Of a DNA stretch of 64,000 bases, positions 28,932-36,843 are shown one piece after another. The notes beneath the pieces were generated by a model. It saw nothing but the letters and a program-made list of their open reading frames with translations, made no database searches and had not been told where the DNA came from. The stretch's first letter is position 1; each line of letters opens with the position of its first letter. Source of the DNA: an uncultured delta proteobacterium (GTDB lineage Bacteria; Desulfobacterota; Desulfobulbia; Desulfobulbales; Desulfocapsaceae); contig CAIQWD010000066.1 of NCBI GenBank assembly GCA_903875445.1, forward strand, positions 62,001-126,000. The letters run 5' to 3'. Position numbers and translations under genes: made by a program.

Positions 28932-28960
28932 CAAAAGGGTCAAGTCTGCTCTTGACTCAT
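28932..28960 (+). repeat. Left terminal inverted repeat of RAYT element
   Basis: 29-base sequence that is an exact reverse complement of 29944-29972. It contains its own hairpin, GTCAAG-TCTGCT-CTTGAC, like REP/REPIN sequences recognised by Y1-type transposases. It encodes the last residues (MSQEQT) and stop of the transposase. Confidence 0.85.
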
Positions 28961-29917
28961 GATAACCTGTTTAATCTGATCAAGTTTACGGTTCAGTGTA
29001 CGGTCCGATTTGAGCCGGACCTTGAATCTTCCTATTATAGTGCTGACGGTGCTGTAATTTTCTATTCCAAATTGTTCGCCAATGCTGTTTAACGTTTCCC
29101 CTCTGAGATGCCGTGCCAGATATAGAGCAATGGCTCTTGCTTCGTTACACGCACCTCGTTTCATTGAAAAAAGCCGGTCTTTATCGATACGGTAATAGTC
29201 ACAGATCACCCGCATGATTCGATCAATATCCGGGGCAAGGCGCTTGGATTCAGGGACTTCGTTATGACGTTTTGTTTCAAAGAATCTGGCTTTTATTTCG
29301 TCGATGAATGGATTGTCCCCAAGAACGGAGGGAAGTTTTTTCAGATTAAAAATATGGAGGAATGACGCAGCCTCCTCTTCCCCCATAAATTCCCGGTATT
29401 TCTTTTCCTTCAAGCTTGGATCTTGGGTGAGCATGGACAGTATGAACGCCTTGTGTAACCAGTCCCACTTTTTAGCCCTGGAAACATAGCCTTTGTGGCT
29501 TGACCATTCATAATGCCCGACTTCCACAACCATCCCGGCCCGCACCGGATTTAGATGAATATAACGGATCAGTTGCAGCAGGTAACTGTCGCCGGCAACC
29601 ACGATCGCTTTGTACCTGCCACGAAACAGTTGTCCGTCCAGAGAATGGCTTCCGTTGTAACGCTGAGTGTAAACACCATTTATGTGCCGCATGCATCTTG
29701 ACAGATTGGCATCGGGTGTTTGAACAAGCAGGTGATAATGATTGGGCATCAGGCAAAAGGAGCTGATCTTTAAAGAAAACAATTCAACCGCTTCACGAAG
29801 GATACTGATGAATTCTTCGTAATCATCTTTACCTCCAAACACCTGCTCACCACGTCGACCGCGGTTCATCACATGGTACCAGGCGTTTGGGTATTCTATG
29901 CGTAAGGGTCTTGACAT
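28940..29917 (-). CDS. REP-associated tyrosine transposase with DnaA-like C-terminus
   Basis: Y1-type HUH transposase of 325 residues. The N-terminal domain starts MSRPLRIEYPNAWYHVMNRG and has the HUH site MPNHYHLLVQ (H60, H62) and the likely catalytic tyrosine Y83 in GVYTQRY. Residues about 225-320 form a DnaA-C-like helix-turn-helix (DRIMRVICDYYRIDKDRL, EARAIALYLARHLRGETL, STVSTIIGRF), an arrangement common in larger RAYTs. These enzymes cut single-stranded REP hairpins. The gene appears intact. Its last codons are formed by the flanking inverted repeat, so element boundary and gene end coincide. Confidence 0.92.
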   Translation of the reverse strand: MSRPLRIEYPNAWYHVMNRGRRGEQVFGGKDDYEEFISILREAVELFSLKISSFCLMPNHYHLLVQTPDANLSRCMRHINGVYTQRYNGSHSLDGQLFRGRYKAIVVAGDSYLLQLIRYIHLNPVRAGMVVEVGHYEWSSHKGYVSRAKKWDWLHKAFILSMLTQDPSLKEKKYREFMGEEEAASFLHIFNLKKLPSVLGDNPFIDEIKARFFETKRHNEVPESKRLAPDIDRIMRVICDYYRIDKDRLFSMKRGACNEARAIALYLARHLRGETLNSIGEQFGIENYSTVSTIIGRFKVRLKSDRTLNRKLDQIKQVIMSQEQT

Positions 29918-30186: not shown

Positions 30187-31266
30187 TTAACGGGAGAACA
30201 ATTTGCTAAACTCCCCAAACCCTTCCTTCTCCAGATCGGCCGCCGGGATAAATCGTAACGCTGCTGAATTGAGGCAATATCTCAGTTTCGTCGGCGCGGG
30301 TCCGTCGTCAAAGACATGGCCGAGATGGGAATTGCCCTTTTTACTGCGCACCTCAGTCCGCACCGAGAACAATTTCCGGTCTTCTTTGGTAACGACATTG
30401 TCCTTGACCAGAGGCTGGGTAAAACTCGGCCAACCGGTGCCCGAATCATATTTGTCAAGCGAGCTGAAAAGGGCTTCGCCGGAAACAATATCCACGTAGA
30501 TTCCAGCCTCTTTATTATCCCAGTATTGGTTTTTGAAGGGCGGCTCGGTGCCGCTTTCCTGGGTTACCTCATATTGCAGCGCGGTGAGTCGTTTCTTTAA
30601 GTCTTCTTTGCTGCTATGTTTTCCCATGGCATTTTTACTCCAGTCAACACTTTCAAGAAATGTATCCCTGCCGGAGCGACTTCGATAGAAGGTGTAACGA
30701 ACCGGATTTTTTTTATAGTAATCCTGATGATATTCCTCGGCCGGGTAAAAGGTGCTGTACGGCAGGATCGGGGTGACGAGCGGGCCTTTGAAAATGCCGC
30801 TGGCAGCAAGTTCTGTCTTGGAGACCTCGGCTAGGTGGCGCTGTTCGTCGCTGTTGTAGAAAATTGCCGTGCTGTAGGCATGGCCGCGGTCGACGAACTG
30901 GCCGCCGGCATCGGTCGGGTCAACCTGGTGCCAATATACGTCGAGGAGTTGCTGATAGCTGATTTTCTTTGGATCGTAGGTAAGTTCCACCACCTCAATA
31001 TGCCCGCCGCCCACATAGTTTTCATAGGTCGGATCCTTGGATGTCCCTCCGGTATAACCGGAAACCACATCCAGTACCCCGTCCAGCTGCTTGAAGGGTT
31101 TTTCCATACACCAAAAACAACCGCCGGCAAACATGGCTTTGGCCACCTCATCACCGGTCTGCCGCTGCGACTCGGTGGCCGCAGCCGGTTTAGTCAGTTG
31201 ATCTACTATCGTCCCCGTTATAGTTACCAGTGTCAGGCACCAGGTAATGATAAATATAGTTTTCAT
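30187..31266 (-). CDS. msrAB: Exported MsrA-MsrB methionine sulfoxide reductase fusion
   Basis: Repairs both S- and R-methionine sulfoxide in one 359-residue chain. A signal peptide (about 1-22) points to the periplasm. MsrA: catalytic C50 in [11 protein letters not shown], then SGYTGG, YHQDYY. MsrB: SGTGWPSF and [11 protein letters not shown], whose cysteine is the nucleophile; the zinc-binding CxxC pairs of some MsrB proteins are absent. Start at 31266 follows AAAGAGG. It lies 47 bp downstream of a candidate selenoprotein gene and below a two-component system, all leftward, which suggests an envelope oxidative-stress operon. Electron donor (usually a DsbD/thioredoxin-like or MsrQ-type system) is not present. 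Confidence 0.93.
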
Positions 31267-31313
31267 TGTCGGCCTCTTTGATAGAATTGTCGTTATCTGA
31301 CTTTTTCTGCACA

Positions 31314-31640
31314 TTACTGACCTCTGCCCTGACTTTTACCATCGTTCTTAGGAGAAACGGTGCGAATATAGGTTTGGGCTTTTTTCAGGACTTCTTCCAT
31401 CTCGTTAATCTGTATCTTCCCCGGGTCAAAGACCACGGTATTGATTTCACCATAGTTCCGCATACCCTTGTCTACCCGTACGACGCCATCTCGCCCATCC
31501 AGGGCGTCTTTGCCGACATCGTATCAGCCGACGACAAACGTCGCTTCCTGTAACGCCGCAAGCGCGTAATCGGTGGATAAACTCGGACCAATTCCCCAGC
31601 CAAGCAGCAGGACCGCCAGAATCATTGTCAACCGTTTCAT
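31314..31640 (-). CDS. Candidate selenoprotein, exported HMA-like domain (in-frame TGA)
   Basis: A 108-codon frame begins at ATG 31640 (GGAGG eight bases upstream) with a signal peptide [18 protein letters not shown]. It is interrupted at codon 39 by TGA (31526-31524) and continues in the same frame to TAA. The continuation reads [17 protein letters not shown], then [14 protein letters not shown] and [11 protein letters not shown], the beta-alpha-beta pattern of an HMA/MerP-like domain. The TGA follows EATFVVG, where the metal-binding cysteine of such domains would stand, and there is no other cysteine in the protein. A hairpin CGCCC-TGGAT-GGGCG starts 17 bases after TGA, the place and loop type of a bacterial SECIS. 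I read it as Sec39; a Cys-to-stop pseudogene is the alternative. Confidence 0.62.
31492..31506 (-). promoter_or_regulatory. SECIS-like hairpin after in-frame TGA
   Basis: On the minus strand CGCCC (31506-31502), loop TGGAT, GGGCG (31496-31492) form a perfect 5-bp stem with GG in a 5-base apical loop, 17 bases past the TGA. Bacterial SECIS elements have a short apical stem and a G-containing loop at about this distance. Confidence 0.5.
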
Positions 31641-31752
31641 TGCCGTACCTCCTTGTTGCCGATTTTGCCAAGAGCATCCTCTTGCTGGAAACAATAGGTA
31701 TTTGCTGTAAAGGGACAATAAAGGGAATGTAAAGATTGGATAAAGAGATTGA

Positions 31753-32820
31753 TTAAAGAGGAAGAACAAACCAGATATGGGTGTCGTCCGGGCGGCTTTC
31801 GGCACCGATCGAACCGCCGTGGGCTTCGATCAGTTCCTTGGTGATTGCCAGACCTATGCCGGCACCGCCAGCGTCGCGCGACCGGGACCGGTCGGCGCGA
31901 AAAAAACGTTCGAAGATAAAGGGCAGGTCGCCTGGGACAATGCCTGGTCCGCTGTTGTGGAAATCGACCTTGATCCCTTCCGCCACCCGGCTTATGCCAA
32001 CCTGCACCCAGCCGTTCTCCGGCGTGTATTTGCAGCAGTTGTCGAGGAGATTCTGCAGGGCCTGGAGGAGCTTGTCGCGATCGGCGGAGACCTGTATCTG
32101 GTCGTCTACCCATCTGGTTTCGACCCTGATCCCCTTTTTCTGGAAATTGAGGCGATGCAGTTCGAGCATCTCTCTGACAAGTCTAGCCAGCACAAACTCT
32201 TCCCGTTTGAGGTAGGCCTTGGCAGCATCGGCCCGGGCCAGCTGCTGCAGGTTGTCGACCAGATGCACCAGCCGGAGGTTCTCTTGTTGCAGCATCTGCA
32301 GGGTCTCAGGCGTTGGTGGAATCACCCCGTCGTTTAAGGCCTCAAGATAACCGCGCAGATTGGTCAGCGGCGTGCGCAGTTCATGGGCGACATCCGCCAC
32401 CATCGTTTTGCGCAGCTGTTCGATTTTGCCAAGTCGATCGGCCATATTATTGAAGGCGATGCCGAGCTGACCGACCTCGTCGCTGGTGCTGATCTCGGCC
32501 CGCAGGGAGAAATTGCCGGCGGCGACTTCCTTGGTGATGGCGGTCATCTGCGAAAGAGGGCGCAGCACCCGGCGCGTGAGAATAAAACTGAGGATAAAAG
32601 CAAGGCCGAGGGCGGCGAGACTTGCCCACACCAGGTACTCATGAATGGAGGTCAAAAACATCTGGTGGATATCTTTGGGGGAGACGTCGTAGATTTTCAT
32701 CAACTCCATGAAATACTCGGCGGCAAGCTTATCGACCGCCAGCCAGACGACCAGAAAAATGACCCCGATCACCGGCAGGATGTTGGTGAGGAGGAGTTTC
32801 CAGAGCAGACGATTGCGCAT
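31753..32820 (-). CDS. Sensor histidine kinase
   Basis: Membrane sensor of 355 residues: two transmembrane helices (about 9-30 and 62-82) bounding a very short 30-residue periplasmic segment, a HAMP domain (RRVLRPLSQMTAITKEVAAG), an H-box with phospho-accepting H146 (ADVAHELRTPLTNLRG), and an HATPase with DNCCKYTPENG, NSGPGI and AGGAGIGLAI. The tiny sensory loop suggests it senses in or near the membrane, in the manner of BaeS/CpxA relatives. Start at 32820 is 4 bp after the response-regulator stop. The pair sits upstream of the candidate selenoprotein and MsrAB. Confidence 0.92.
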   Translation of the reverse strand: MRNRLLWKLLLTNILPVIGVIFLVVWLAVDKLAAEYFMELMKIYDVSPKDIHQMFLTSIHEYLVWASLAALGLAFILSFILTRRVLRPLSQMTAITKEVAAGNFSLRAEISTSDEVGQLGIAFNNMADRLGKIEQLRKTMVADVAHELRTPLTNLRGYLEALNDGVIPPTPETLQMLQQENLRLVHLVDNLQQLARADAAKAYLKREEFVLARLVREMLELHRLNFQKKGIRVETRWVDDQIQVSADRDKLLQALQNLLDNCCKYTPENGWVQVGISRVAEGIKVDFHNSGPGIVPGDLPFIFERFFRADRSRSRDAGGAGIGLAITKELIEAHGGSIGAESRPDDTHIWFVLPL

Positions 32821-32824
32821 CCCC

Positions 32825-33529
32825 TCACCCCTCGTCCGGTTCGGCAAACCGGTAGCCGAAACCGCGGACGGTAAGGATGCGTTGCGGATTGGCGGGGTCG
32901 TCCTCGATCTTTTGCCGGAGTTTGCCGATATGCACGTCGATGACCCGGTCGACGACCGTCTCGCCATGTTCGTAGAAACGCTCCAGCAGCTCATTTCTTG
33001 AGAACATCCGTCCCGGCGAAGACATGAGAGTCTGGAGCAACTTGTATTCCGAAGAGGTCAGGTTGACCGCGACGCCGCCCATGCTCACCTTGTGTTTTTC
33101 CGGATCGAGTACAAGCCCGCCGTGCTGCATGAGTTGTTTTCCCCGCGGTGGTCCGGGCTGCACTCGGCGAAGTATCGCCTTGACCCTTTCCACCAGTTCG
33201 CGCGGGCTGAAGGGTTTTACCACATAATCGTCTGCTCCGAGAGAAAGCCCCATCACCCGATCCATCTCCTCCTCACGGGCGGTCAGCATGAGAATCGGCA
33301 CGTCGGAAAACTTGCGCAATTGCCGGCAGACCTCCCAGCCGTCGATCTTGGGCAGCATCACATCGAGGATGACGAAACCCGGTTCATGGAGGCGCGCCTG
33401 ACGCAACGCTTCCTCGCCGTCGTAGGCGGCAATGGTGCTGAAGCCTTCGCGTTCAAGATAGGTTGTCACCAGTTTTGAGGTGTTTTGATCGTCTTCAACT
33501 ATGAGAATGGGATTAGTGAGAATCGACAT
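32825..33529 (-). CDS. OmpR-family response regulator
   Basis: DNA-binding response regulator of 234 residues: receiver domain with acid pocket EDD (12-14), phosphorylation site D56 in VILDVMLPKIDG, and VVKPFSPREL; then a winged-helix domain (NLTSSEYKLLQTLMSSPGRMFSR, VDVHIGKLRQKI, TVRGFGYRF). Partner of the kinase 4 bp downstream. Its likely targets include the genes below it (candidate selenoprotein and MsrAB), but no operator has been identified. Confidence 0.94.
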   Translation of the reverse strand: MSILTNPILIVEDDQNTSKLVTTYLEREGFSTIAAYDGEEALRQARLHEPGFVILDVMLPKIDGWEVCRQLRKFSDVPILMLTAREEEMDRVMGLSLGADDYVVKPFSPRELVERVKAILRRVQPGPPRGKQLMQHGGLVLDPEKHKVSMGGVAVNLTSSEYKLLQTLMSSPGRMFSRNELLERFYEHGETVVDRVIDVHIGKLRQKIEDDPANPQRILTVRGFGYRFAEPDEG

Positions 33530-33633: not shown

Positions 33634-36600
33634 TCAGCTCCTCTTCTCATCTCCATCTTTTGTCCAAAAATCAGCCAGCAACTCCGCCTGATCAAGCACC
33701 TTGTTGACCGAAACCGTATATTCTCCGGTAGTTGGATCATCCGGCGGGTATTTATATTTTCTGAGGATTCGTTTCACCAAAACCCGCAGTTTTGCCTGGA
33801 CACTCTCTTTCAACTGCCAATCGATTGATGTGTTTCTTCTTACGCTGTCAACCAATTCGTGAGCGATCTGTTTGAGTGTTTGATCACCAAGCACTGCTTC
33901 TGCCGTTGGGTTATCCGCCAGGGCATCGAAGAATGCCAGTTCATCAACCCGAAGGTTCATCTTTTCACCGCGTTTATCGGCTTCTCTGATATGCTTGGCA
34001 AGCTGAATCAGCTCTTCGATAATTTTCGCCGAATCGATCAGGCCGCTTTGGTAGCGTTTGACCGCATTGGCCAGCAACTCTGAAAACTTCTTGCCTTGGA
34101 CGAGATTTAATTTCGCTCGATTCCTGATTTCATCGTTCAGGAGGCGTTTCAACAGTTCAAGGGCAAGATTTTTTCTTTCCATTCCGTGGATTTCAGACAA
34201 AAACTCATCCGATAGAATAGAAATATCCGGTTTCCTGATTCCCGCGGCATCAAAGACATCGATTACTTCCCGGGAAATGATGGCGTCATTGACAATCTGG
34301 CGGATGGCGGTCTCAATCTCTTCACCTGTGCGAGTTTTGCCCTGTTCATCAAACTTAGTAAAGCGGGCCTTGATCGCCTGGAAGAGAGCCAGGTCATCGC
34401 GGATTGCATAGGCCTTAGGGTGAGGGACGGACAGACTAAATACCTTTTGTAGCTTGATGACGTTTTCCTTAAACCGTTCCTTGCCGTTGCGGACACCCTT
34501 TCCATCCCTTTCATCCGTCAACTGAGAGATGGAGTTAGCGGCATCGAGAATGAAATTCAGCTTCGCCTTCGGCTCCAAGGCGAAATATTTGCGGTAATCA
34601 AAAGTGCCGAACATATCTCCAACAATTTCATGAAGCTCAAGCATTTTGGCCACAGCATCTTCCTGATCATAGGTCAGTTGCCCTTTCCCTCTTTCGGTGT
34701 AAACGGCCATGGCGTTTTTCAGATCCTGGGCGATGCCGATGTAATCGACGATCAACCCGCCCTCCTTGTCGCCGAAAACCCGGTTGACCCGGGCAATCGC
34801 CTGCATAAGGTTGTGGCCGTTCATCGGCTTGTCGATGTAGAGCGTATGCAGACAGGGGGCATCAAAACCGGTCAGCCACATATCCCGGACAATCACCAGC
34901 CGGAGCGGATCTTTCGGGTCCTTCAGACGGTCGCCGATGGTTTTGCGGCGTGGTTTGTTGCGGATATGTTCCTGCCACGTAAGCGGGTCACTGGCGGAGC
35001 CGGTCATGATGACTTTGATCGTGCCCTTGTCGTCATCAGCGTCGTACCAGTGCGGCCTGAGTCTGATGATCCGGGCATGCAATTCGACACAGATGCGCCG
35101 ACTCATGCAGACGATCATCCCTTTACCATCCGCCGCTGCCAACCGCTGTTCAAAATGGTGGATCAGATCGGCGGCAACCTGCTGCAAGCGCATGTGGCTG
35201 CCGACCACCGCCTCCTTGCCGGTCCATTTGACAAAGCGCTTCTGCCGTTCGCTCAGTTCGTCGCCTTCGGTGACCTCCTCGACGCGTTCATCCAGCACCT
35301 GTTGGTCGGCTGGTGAAAGCTCAATCTTGACGAGACGGCTTTCGTAGTAGATGCGCACGGTCGCGCCGTCTTCAACTGCCTGCTGAATGTCGTACACGTC
35401 AATATAGTCGCCGAATACCGCCTGGGTATTTTTATCTTCCTTCTCGATGGGTGTGCCGGTAAAACCGATGAAGGTGGCGTTGGGTAGGGCATCGCGCATA
35501 TGGCGGGCAAAGCCGTCAATAAAATCATATTGGCTGCGATGCGCCTCATCGGCAATGACGACGATGTTGCGTCGCAGAGAAAGAAGGGGATATTTCCCAC
35601 CCACTTCCTCGGGCAGAAATTTCTGGATGGTGGTGAAGACTACGCCGCCGGAAGCGACCACGAGCAGTTTCTTCAAATCATCACGATTAGCAGCCTGACA
35701 AGGTGTCTGGCGCAGCAGTTGCTGACAGTTGCTGAAGGTTTCGAATAGTTGCTGATCGAGGTCGTTGCGATCAGTGAGCACCATCAACGTCGGGTTGTTC
35801 ATGGCGTTTGCCAGCACCAGTTTGCCGGCAAAGAAAACCATGGTCAAACTCTTGCCGCTCCCCTGCGTGTGCCACACGACACCGGCCCGTTTGTCCCCGC
35901 CCGTTTGGTCCTTGGCATTGGCTAAACCGTATTTCGCCGGGTCTTCGCGGGTTTCTTGTTGCCCCGCCTCCGCCGGTGGTAACGCCGCCCGAATCGTCGA
36001 CTCGATGGCCCTGTTCACCGCATAGAATTGATGATAGGCAGCCACCTTTTTGATGGTTTCTTCCTTGGTCCTCTCAAAAACGATAAAATGGCGAATAACC
36101 TCAAGCAGGGTTCTTTTGTTCAGCAGTCCTTTGATCATCGGCTCCAGAGCAGACTCCTGCCTGGTGTCGACGATAGTTGCACCGTCCCCAGTTTTCCATT
36201 CCATGAAACGGGAATAATCGCTGGAGAGCGTGCCGACCTTGGCAAACCAGCCATCGCTGATGATCAGAATAGCGTTGCAGATAAAGAGCGAGGGGATCAA
36301 CTGCTTATAGGTCTGTAATTGATTGAAAGCCGCCTTGACATCGGCGTTCTCGTCAGCTGCGTTTTTCAATTCCATGACCACCAGTGGCAGGCCATTGACC
36401 AGCAGCACCACGTCGGGTCGTTTGTTATTATGGTTTTCCAGCACCGTGTACTGGTTAACGGCCAGAAATTCGTTGTTATCGGGATTGGCAAAATCGACCA
36501 GCCAGACTTTGTCAGTCTTGGTCTTGCCGTCACCGATGGAGCATTTGACATCAATGCCATCGGTGAGCATTCGGTGAAAGGCTTCGTTGTTTTCCAGCAG

Positions 36601-36843
36601 ATTGATTGACACCGTGCGCAGCGCCTTTTTGACAGCCTCTTCCCGGGCTTCGGCAGGGATGGTCTGGTTCAGACGGTCAATGGCATCACGCAGGCGGCCT
36701 TGCAACACGACTTCGGTATAATCCCGCTCCTTCCGATTGCCTTCGGAAAGGTCCGGGCCAAAGGCCACAGCATAACCGTTATCATCATGAAGGATGTCGA
36801 GTGCGATCTGCTCGATCTCGGATTCGTAGAGTCGGTTGGTCAT
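33634..36843 (-). CDS. hsdR: Type I restriction enzyme R subunit
   Basis: Motor and nuclease subunit of a type I restriction-modification complex, 1069 residues. The N-terminal PD-(D/E)xK nuclease shows D144 and E158-L-K160 ([17 protein letters not shown]). The SF2 translocase has Walker A TQGSGKS (326-332), [20 protein letters not shown], and [20 protein letters not shown]. The C-terminal helical region should bind the methylase core. It cuts DNA lacking the host methyl mark after translocation. It is the last gene of the six-gene operon and overlaps the upstream rhuM gene by 4 bp (ATGA). The frame is intact, so restriction is probably active. Confidence 0.94.

Follow-up and report, generated by a model that had tools for sequence, protein, structure and literature searches.

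A predicted exported selenoprotein, often encoded beside methionine sulfoxide reductases, with a putative domain between the MsrA and HMA families

The described systems closest to the gene analysed here are the reductase MsrA (PF01625) and the HMA domains MerP and CopZ (PF00403, TIGR02052), together with two selenoprotein groups, the UxxU metal-binding (seleno)proteins (NF041115) and the VPGUxxT thioredoxin-like proteins of type 2 (NF041383). The catalytic pair of E. coli MsrA is Cys51 and Glu94, and in the family as a whole the Cys/Sec and Glu columns have a catalytic role. A second reductase, MsrP, belongs to the PF00174 superfamily. Going by the title of one study, a selenoprotein glutaredoxin is reportedly adapted for reducing a selenoprotein MsrA. 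The bacterial SECIS is defined as a hairpin directly 3' of the UGA with a G in its apical loop. Proteins of the UxxU group carry two Sec, as listed in the table of PMC13188914. For MsrB, a passage of PMC6316033 describes selenocystamine as a working reductant for human MsrB2 and MsrB3, and a passage of PMC7475093 has both enzymes without a Cys at the usual resolving position, the resolving Cys of MsrB3 lying elsewhere. Metal and sulfoxide stress can also be linked, since part of PMC9302797 describes how copper stress in E. coli induces MsrPQ through CusSR and how MsrP repairs the chaperone CusF.

The window, a stretch of 64,000 nucleotides from an uncultured member of the Desulfocapsaceae, contains a gene that a first-pass annotation had proposed to be that of a new exported selenoprotein. 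Shown in Table 1 are the features of this locus. The proposed frame, which lies on the minus strand, was borne out with its single in-frame TGA, as were the good ribosome-binding site, the 38-residue stub ahead of the TGA and the claim that there is no other cysteine, none being present among the 108 residues of the product. The N-terminus is signal-peptide-like, as had been claimed, and a hydrophobic stretch is found there in 65 of 67 family members; judged from this N-terminus, the protein is exported. The neighbours are also those that had been named, an MsrA-MsrB fusion downstream and a two-component system upstream. The longest ORF of the fusion overlaps the selenoprotein stop (TAATG), although the ATG at 31266, which has an AGAGG of its own, is the likelier start. 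Further out on the same strand, an ORF at 28940-29917 is presumably a REP-associated IS200-type transposase, and a large ORF at 33634-36843 resembles what we take to be the HsdR subunit of a type I restriction system.

Table 1. Coordinates of the selenoprotein gene, its recoding signals, its neighbours and the selD genes of the host genome
Feature	Position	Strand	Remarks
Putative selenoprotein gene, 108 codons and TAA	31314..31640	(-)	Signal-like N-terminus and predicted ferredoxin-like domain, Sec39, Glu65
TGA read as selenocysteine, codon 39	31524..31526	(-)	TGA in 67/69 relatives
TAA stop of selenoprotein gene	31316-31314	(-)	ATG start at 31640
Shine-Dalgarno AAGGAGG	31648..31654	(-)	Read directly; 7 nt 5' of ATG
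SECIS-like hairpin	31490..31508	(-)	nt 19-37 counted from TGA
Hairpin loop UGGAU	31497-31501	(-)	nt 21-35 pair
MsrA-MsrB fusion	30187..31314	(-)	PF01625, PF01641; hydrophobic N-terminus; longest ORF
Sensor histidine kinase	31753..32994	(-)	HAMP, HisKA, HATPase_c; longest ORF, conserved protein starts near 32820
OmpR-type response regulator	32825..33529	(-)	Domain scan
SelD genes	G000:C113:107288-108211 and G000:C28:125645-126574		One in-frame TGA each

A first search with the single window protein against genome contigs found no relatives. A profile of the part 3' of the TGA, which is blind to the codon at the Sec site, matched 69 loci in a collection of 84,980 species. The homologues bear out the proposed recoding: the codon at the same position is TGA in 67 of the 69 loci and TGC or TGT in none, and the sequence after the TGA is conserved rather than unrelated. 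Both non-TGA loci are broken remnants, L058 having GCA at the Sec site with the preceding part in a different frame and L106 being truncated and containing an in-frame stop, and they were excluded from the Sec counts and alignments. The sequences of L010-L013 and L015 duplicate five of those 67, and these loci add nothing to the count; L014, also with TGA, lies outside the 67. By record title the relatives are mostly Deltaproteobacteria or Desulfobacter-type bacteria, the range as a whole taking in Desulfobacterota, Nitrospirota, SAR324 and Myxococcales; five of the 67 TGA loci are titled Nitrospirota or Thermodesulfovibrionia, two SAR324 and two Myxococcales. Among named species, Desulfosediminicola flagellatus IMCC35005 (L100) and Desulforhopalus sp. 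IMCC35007 carry the gene as well.

Within the phylum, the profile found a match in 18 of 297 genomes. Eight matches are strong (E 1e-18 or better), seven of them with TGA and one with Ser (L016). Nine are weak; the three that were read are one HMA and two MsrA domains, and four further ones overlap places hit by an HMA-type model (G142 and one of two G244 places were left out of this classification). The remaining match, in genome G088 (L147/L172), is a divergent TGA copy beside MsrAB that has lost the Glu of the REINTV motif and is followed by a second TGA, and it may be in decay. A whole-genome search of 18 genomes gave TGA in 19 of 19 copies. These searches, all built from Sec forms, found no Cys form of the family; a distant one is possible.

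The machinery for Sec insertion, which had been named as a point to check, is complete in the host genome (4.89 Mb in 117 contigs), where SelA (627.5 bits), SelB (349.9 bits) and two SelD genes all score above their cut-offs and a tRNA-Sec with anticodon tca is present. SelB was found in 25 of 25 genome handles with the family (two of them, G226 and G306, are apparently the same genome, and the copy in G013 is the Ser form), but across the phylum it is present in 85 of 99 genomes anyway. Because SelB is that common in the phylum, its co-occurrence lends the selenoprotein reading weak support.

The SECIS-like hairpin had been placed at a proper distance from the TGA, and folding agrees: the 48 nt from the TGA reach -20.5 kcal/mol (z = -3.45; 2 of 200 shuffles equally good), with the apical stem CGCCC-UGGAU-GGGCG at nt 21-35. 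In an RNA alignment that combines the window with the 67 loci in 66 distinct rows and is gap-free over the 42 nt from the TGA, the stem of nt 19-26 with nt 30-37 is paired in 86.9% of cells versus 37.9-57.8% for versions shifted by one to three positions, and the loop GGA (nt 27-29) is invariant across all 68 sequences. The covariation score of the stem is 0.263 versus 0.152 for shuffled alignments, with none of 500 shuffles reaching it, and 35 cells are changed on both sides versus 16.4 for shuffles. The pair 21-35, for instance, occurs as AU, GU, CG, UA and UG. Counted by stem pairs, double changes are seen in 3 of 8, no more than in shuffles (2.6; 286 of 500). Codons within the hairpin are frozen, with CTG in 68/68 and GGG in 64/68, and GGG is used at two other nearby Gly codons in 6/68 and 7/68. 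Since coding and structure overlap and the sequences are related, the conservation of the hairpin comes partly from protein and descent. The one Rfam match, to 2dG-II, is below threshold (20.1 bits versus 60).

Could the gene be something other than that of a selenoprotein, whether a pseudogene, an artefact of sequencing, or a stub of 38 residues followed by an open frame that arose by chance? Gene finders would call the stub, and the two remnants, the Ser of L016 and the decayed-looking L147/L172 copy fit such an account. However, this alternative is set against TGA in 67/69 loci, conserved protein beyond it, a covarying hairpin and the Sec machinery, and we consider it extremely unlikely; TGA in 67 separate records makes a sequencing error in particular very unlikely. 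Because the UGA is conserved, the hairpin covaries and the Sec machinery is present, the window gene almost certainly encodes a genuine selenoprotein, as far as sequence can tell.

An AlphaFold2 model built from 68 sequences (pLDDT block means of 95-98 over residues 31-90) predicts the element order beta-alpha-beta-beta-alpha-beta, with Sec39 just past strand 1 and ahead of helix 1. F35, V37, Sec39, G43, A46, L47, G49, G52, E65 and L85 are invariant in the 68 aligned sequences. The first-pass annotation had called this domain HMA-like, with the TGA at the metal- or redox-active cysteine. The first part stands as regards the predicted fold: HMA domains are the majority of the 50 structure matches listed and the closest among them, MerP (1osd) aligning across 66 residues with Z 10.8 and rmsd 1.8. 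Foldseek gave a best HMA match at E 0.0045 and bovine MsrA at E 0.019, every PDB match being weaker than E 0.001, and a sequence search of the PDB returned MerP (0.0028), a CzcP ATPase (0.049) and MsrA (0.053). MerP is likewise small and exported. But the CxxC metal loop, GMxCxxC in HMA domains, is missing, and the family has a single selenol. The second part of the claim needs correction: the profile alignment places Sec39 in the column of the MsrA catalytic Cys and Glu65 in that of the invariant MsrA Glu. The alignment to the HMA profile excludes the Sec column; the comparison set A5 had been chosen by the GMxCxxC motif. With hhalign the family is about as close to MsrA (96.6%, E 6.9e-10, 59 columns) as to HMA (96.9%, E 1.4e-10, 44 columns), and MsrA and HMA are related to each other at 76.5% (E 2.2e-5).

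The 68 members were also scanned as single sequences, at E up to 0.1. In Pfam, PF01625 is matched by 20/68 (best 4.3e-4) and PF00403 by 7/68 (best 8.1e-3); in NCBIfam, VPGUxxT type 2 is matched by 68/68 (best 4.2e-12), UxxU by 64/68 (best 6.8e-10), two CopZ models by 35/68 and 31/68, MerP by 20/68 and msrA by 9/68. The window protein reaches the cut-off of no Pfam or NCBIfam model. Its UxxU score is 14.4 bits (cut-off 95), and it has the motif UYDV with one Sec, unlike the double-Sec UxxU proteins. Against VPGUxxT type 2 it scores 26.8 bits (cut-off 275), and the family has no thioredoxin part. The window Sec protein matches positions 143-206 of NF041383 and the window MsrA positions 139-199; all 68 members match this second part of the model as well, and positions of about 139-206 thus seem to represent a domain related to that of the family and joined there to a selenoprotein of thioredoxin-like type. 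No full-length VPGUxxT type 2 protein scored above cut-off in any of 297 or of 17 genomes. Separately, in another genome of the phylum, the stretch G026:C122:1567-1764 matches the UxxU model and contains two TGA codons in frame; it is perhaps a true double-Sec UxxU member. We read the domain of the window protein as a ferredoxin-like one that lies between the MsrA and HMA families and is a member of neither.

The likeness to MsrA takes in the ferredoxin-like core, the Sec and Glu columns and frequent co-encoding, and it raises the question of whether the protein is a stand-alone mini-reductase, either a descendant of the MsrA core or convergent with it, that would itself reduce a small sulfoxide, hypohalous acid or peroxide through Sec and Glu. 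Sec39 and Glu65 are probably adjacent in the structure, given the usual strand order and the comparison with MsrA, and PF01625 is matched by more members than PF00403. However, the domain of about 70 residues is about half of MsrA, which has about 150; it lacks a loop of some 17 residues as well as everything beyond alignment column 83 of 181, and only 59 of 181 columns align, with a 17-column gap, short of a full-length domain. Complete MsrA and MsrB are, moreover, often encoded next to the gene. We regard a mini-reductase as quite improbable. Nor can the domain act as a dithiol reductant, since a second Cys or Sec is absent from it in 66 of 67 members.

The redox-repair setting described in the first-pass annotation recurs beyond the window. 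Of the 67 TGA loci, 37 have a same-strand MsrA and/or MsrB at a distance of up to about 1.9 kb (MsrA in 33, MsrB in 36, both in 32), where chance would give about 1%, an expectation from the few copies per genome rather than a computed rate. There are two gene orders, Msr preceding the Sec gene in 23 loci and following it in 14. A same-strand two-component gene is nearby in 30 of the 67 loci, 26 of which also have Msr. Flanks are complete in 57 loci. Msr is present in 33 of these, a same-strand Msr is missing from the flanks of the other 24, and 15 of the 57 have none of Msr, a two-component system or a molybdoprotein. In one contig (L041:4065-4922) MsrB (PF01641, 2.3e-51) and the Sec domain share a single frame, in which Sec is residue 229. 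By eye this fusion has a Tat signal ahead of MsrB, and between the two domains there is too little space for a second signal peptide. The fusion is one of the two family members without the N-terminal stretch; it comes from a single low-coverage contig (1.24 by record title).

Neighbouring ORFs of at least 80 codons were clustered after removal of smaller overlapping ORFs, a procedure in which antisense frames can hide real genes. Clusters found in at least five loci comprise two-component systems, Msr, a molybdoprotein, antisense frames and loosely associated flavin disulfide reductases, and no metal pump was seen among them. The flavin disulfide reductases lie 1.6-6 kb away in five loci; of two scanned, one is a dihydrolipoyl dehydrogenase over cut-off and the other an FAD oxidoreductase below the MerA cut-off, and the association is too loose for us to keep them as a functional link. 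The molybdoprotein, short, of the sulfite-oxidase fold and forming one sequence cluster, lies directly upstream in six non-Msr loci (L044, L047, L052, L059, L079 and L081), where it stands in for Msr as the partner. Five molybdoproteins were scanned, four of these six and that of L070, which is 2 kb off; all are PF00174 proteins that fit SorA better than MsrP and fall below the cut-offs of both models. A methionine-sulfoxide role for them would be a guess.

A further observation concerns the kinases, 20 of 25 of which, where they adjoin the Sec gene, align with that of the window at 47-94% over 128-155 residues (L042, L053, L056, L061, L062, L070, L071, L074, L076, L080, L083, L084, L088, L093, L094, L096, L098, L100, L101 and L104). 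In these 20 the outer loop is very short and its Met and His residues are conserved; the pattern read by eye is YFxxLMxxY...HxMFxxxVHxYL. To judge from this loop, the neighbouring kinase (31753-32820 in the window) may sense metal or methionine oxidation. Since the loop fits metal and oxidant sensing equally, it does not choose between the readings.

The chief rival to a redox role is a metal-binding selenoprotein, a periplasmic chaperone or scavenger similar to MerP or CopZ whose selenolate would hold a soft metal such as Cu(I) or Hg(II); metal stress, which oxidises methionines, would then account for co-encoding with Msr. The closeness of the predicted fold to HMA, the match of 64/68 members to the UxxU model (though the window protein falls well below its cut-off), the Met and His of the 20 kinases and the shared control of metal response and Msr by CusSR in E. 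coli can all be cited in its favour. However, the metal loop is absent, the domain has one Sec and no Cys in 66/67 members, the HMA alignment misses the Sec site and no metal pump appears among the recurrent neighbours. On balance we think a metal-binding role unlikely.

Care must be taken with two traits of the neighbouring reductases that could be mistaken for further support. None of the 38 MsrBs from the loci of relatives has the usual resolving Cys (T in 36, S in 2; the count includes one at a distance of 5.7 kb and another on the opposite strand). However, this is general in the phylum, as 38 of 39 MsrBs in 40 phylum control loci lack it as well (T 36, S 2, C 1; control locus L172 has the divergent Sec gene copy alongside), and so do 11 of 11 MsrBs in 12 further regions of genomes that carry the gene (one of them, L213, had entered the first count as the distant MsrB of L085). 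We therefore do not count the one-Cys state of MsrB in favour of a selenol reductant. Similarly, a hydrophobic N-terminus is found on 32/33 neighbouring MsrAs versus 35/40 controls and 10/12 other copies, and export of the neighbouring MsrA is thus not specific to the loci of the family.

The adjacency to Msr, the MsrB-Sec fusion and the MsrA profile match that spans both Sec and Glu incline us, by a small measure, to the view that the Sec protein is a redox part of periplasmic (exported) methionine-sulfoxide repair; the use of selenocystamine by human MsrB2 and MsrB3 speaks for it as well. Set against this view are the fully flanked loci that have no same-strand Msr, the HMA domains as closest structural matches, the dependence of the fusion on one low-coverage contig, and Glu65, which may be structural, since the L147/L172 copy has lost it and the Ser form retains it. 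Beyond an exported selenoprotein that often accompanies Msr, we infer the following steps. Once the protein is exported, Sec39, which is placed at the start of helix 1 and probably beside the invariant Glu65, would offer its selenol as a redox nucleophile. Most likely it would reduce or resolve the oxidised catalytic cysteine of the co-encoded exported MsrA/MsrB in trans. Because the domain has no second thiol, it would have to act as a mono-selenol, resolving a sulfenic acid or a mixed disulfide and then being re-reduced by another partner, so that some periplasmic reductant would recycle the oxidised Sec protein. The adjoining two-component system probably controls the gene set.

The novelty claimed in the first-pass annotation holds in part. 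Section 7 of a 2026 inventory of 119 selenoprotein families (PMC13188914) has no entry that can be equated with this one, and the NCBIfam accessions given in that paper for TsoY (UxxV), DG and DF are absent among the matches of the Sec family. In the open-licence literature, no paper was found with the motif UYDVG. An older listing of a 'MerP' selenoprotein from 2008, which we suspect stems from a 2007 paper on an Olavius symbiont, leaves novelty not fully proven. In its table, that ocean survey (PMC2398784) has two selenoproteins named 'Mercuric transport protein MerP', with no Sec motif given and 0 Cys homologues; compared by this table description only, they may be the same family.

The finding also bears on how selenoproteins are found. 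Ordinary gene calling shortens the Sec gene to its stub, and discovery methods that demand Cys homologues would tend to overlook such families. For instance, the deep-Sep survey, in the part of PMC12013277 that sets out its selection, retains a candidate if a Sec homologue is already known or if there are two or more Cys homologues, and by these criteria a family without a Cys form would tend to escape. Desulfosediminicola flagellatus IMCC35005, a carrier of the gene, is listed there as a test species. A conserved family that counts 67 TGA forms and has yielded no Cys form would be a rare case of an apparent requirement for selenium, and a place to ask why. We tentatively suggest, as a possibility that is open to considerable doubt, an undescribed and apparently Sec-only family that lends its selenol in trans to exported Msr, with the resolving residue on a separate small protein that is occasionally fused to MsrB. 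If true, this would offer a candidate answer to how exported MsrA and MsrB are re-reduced in these bacteria.
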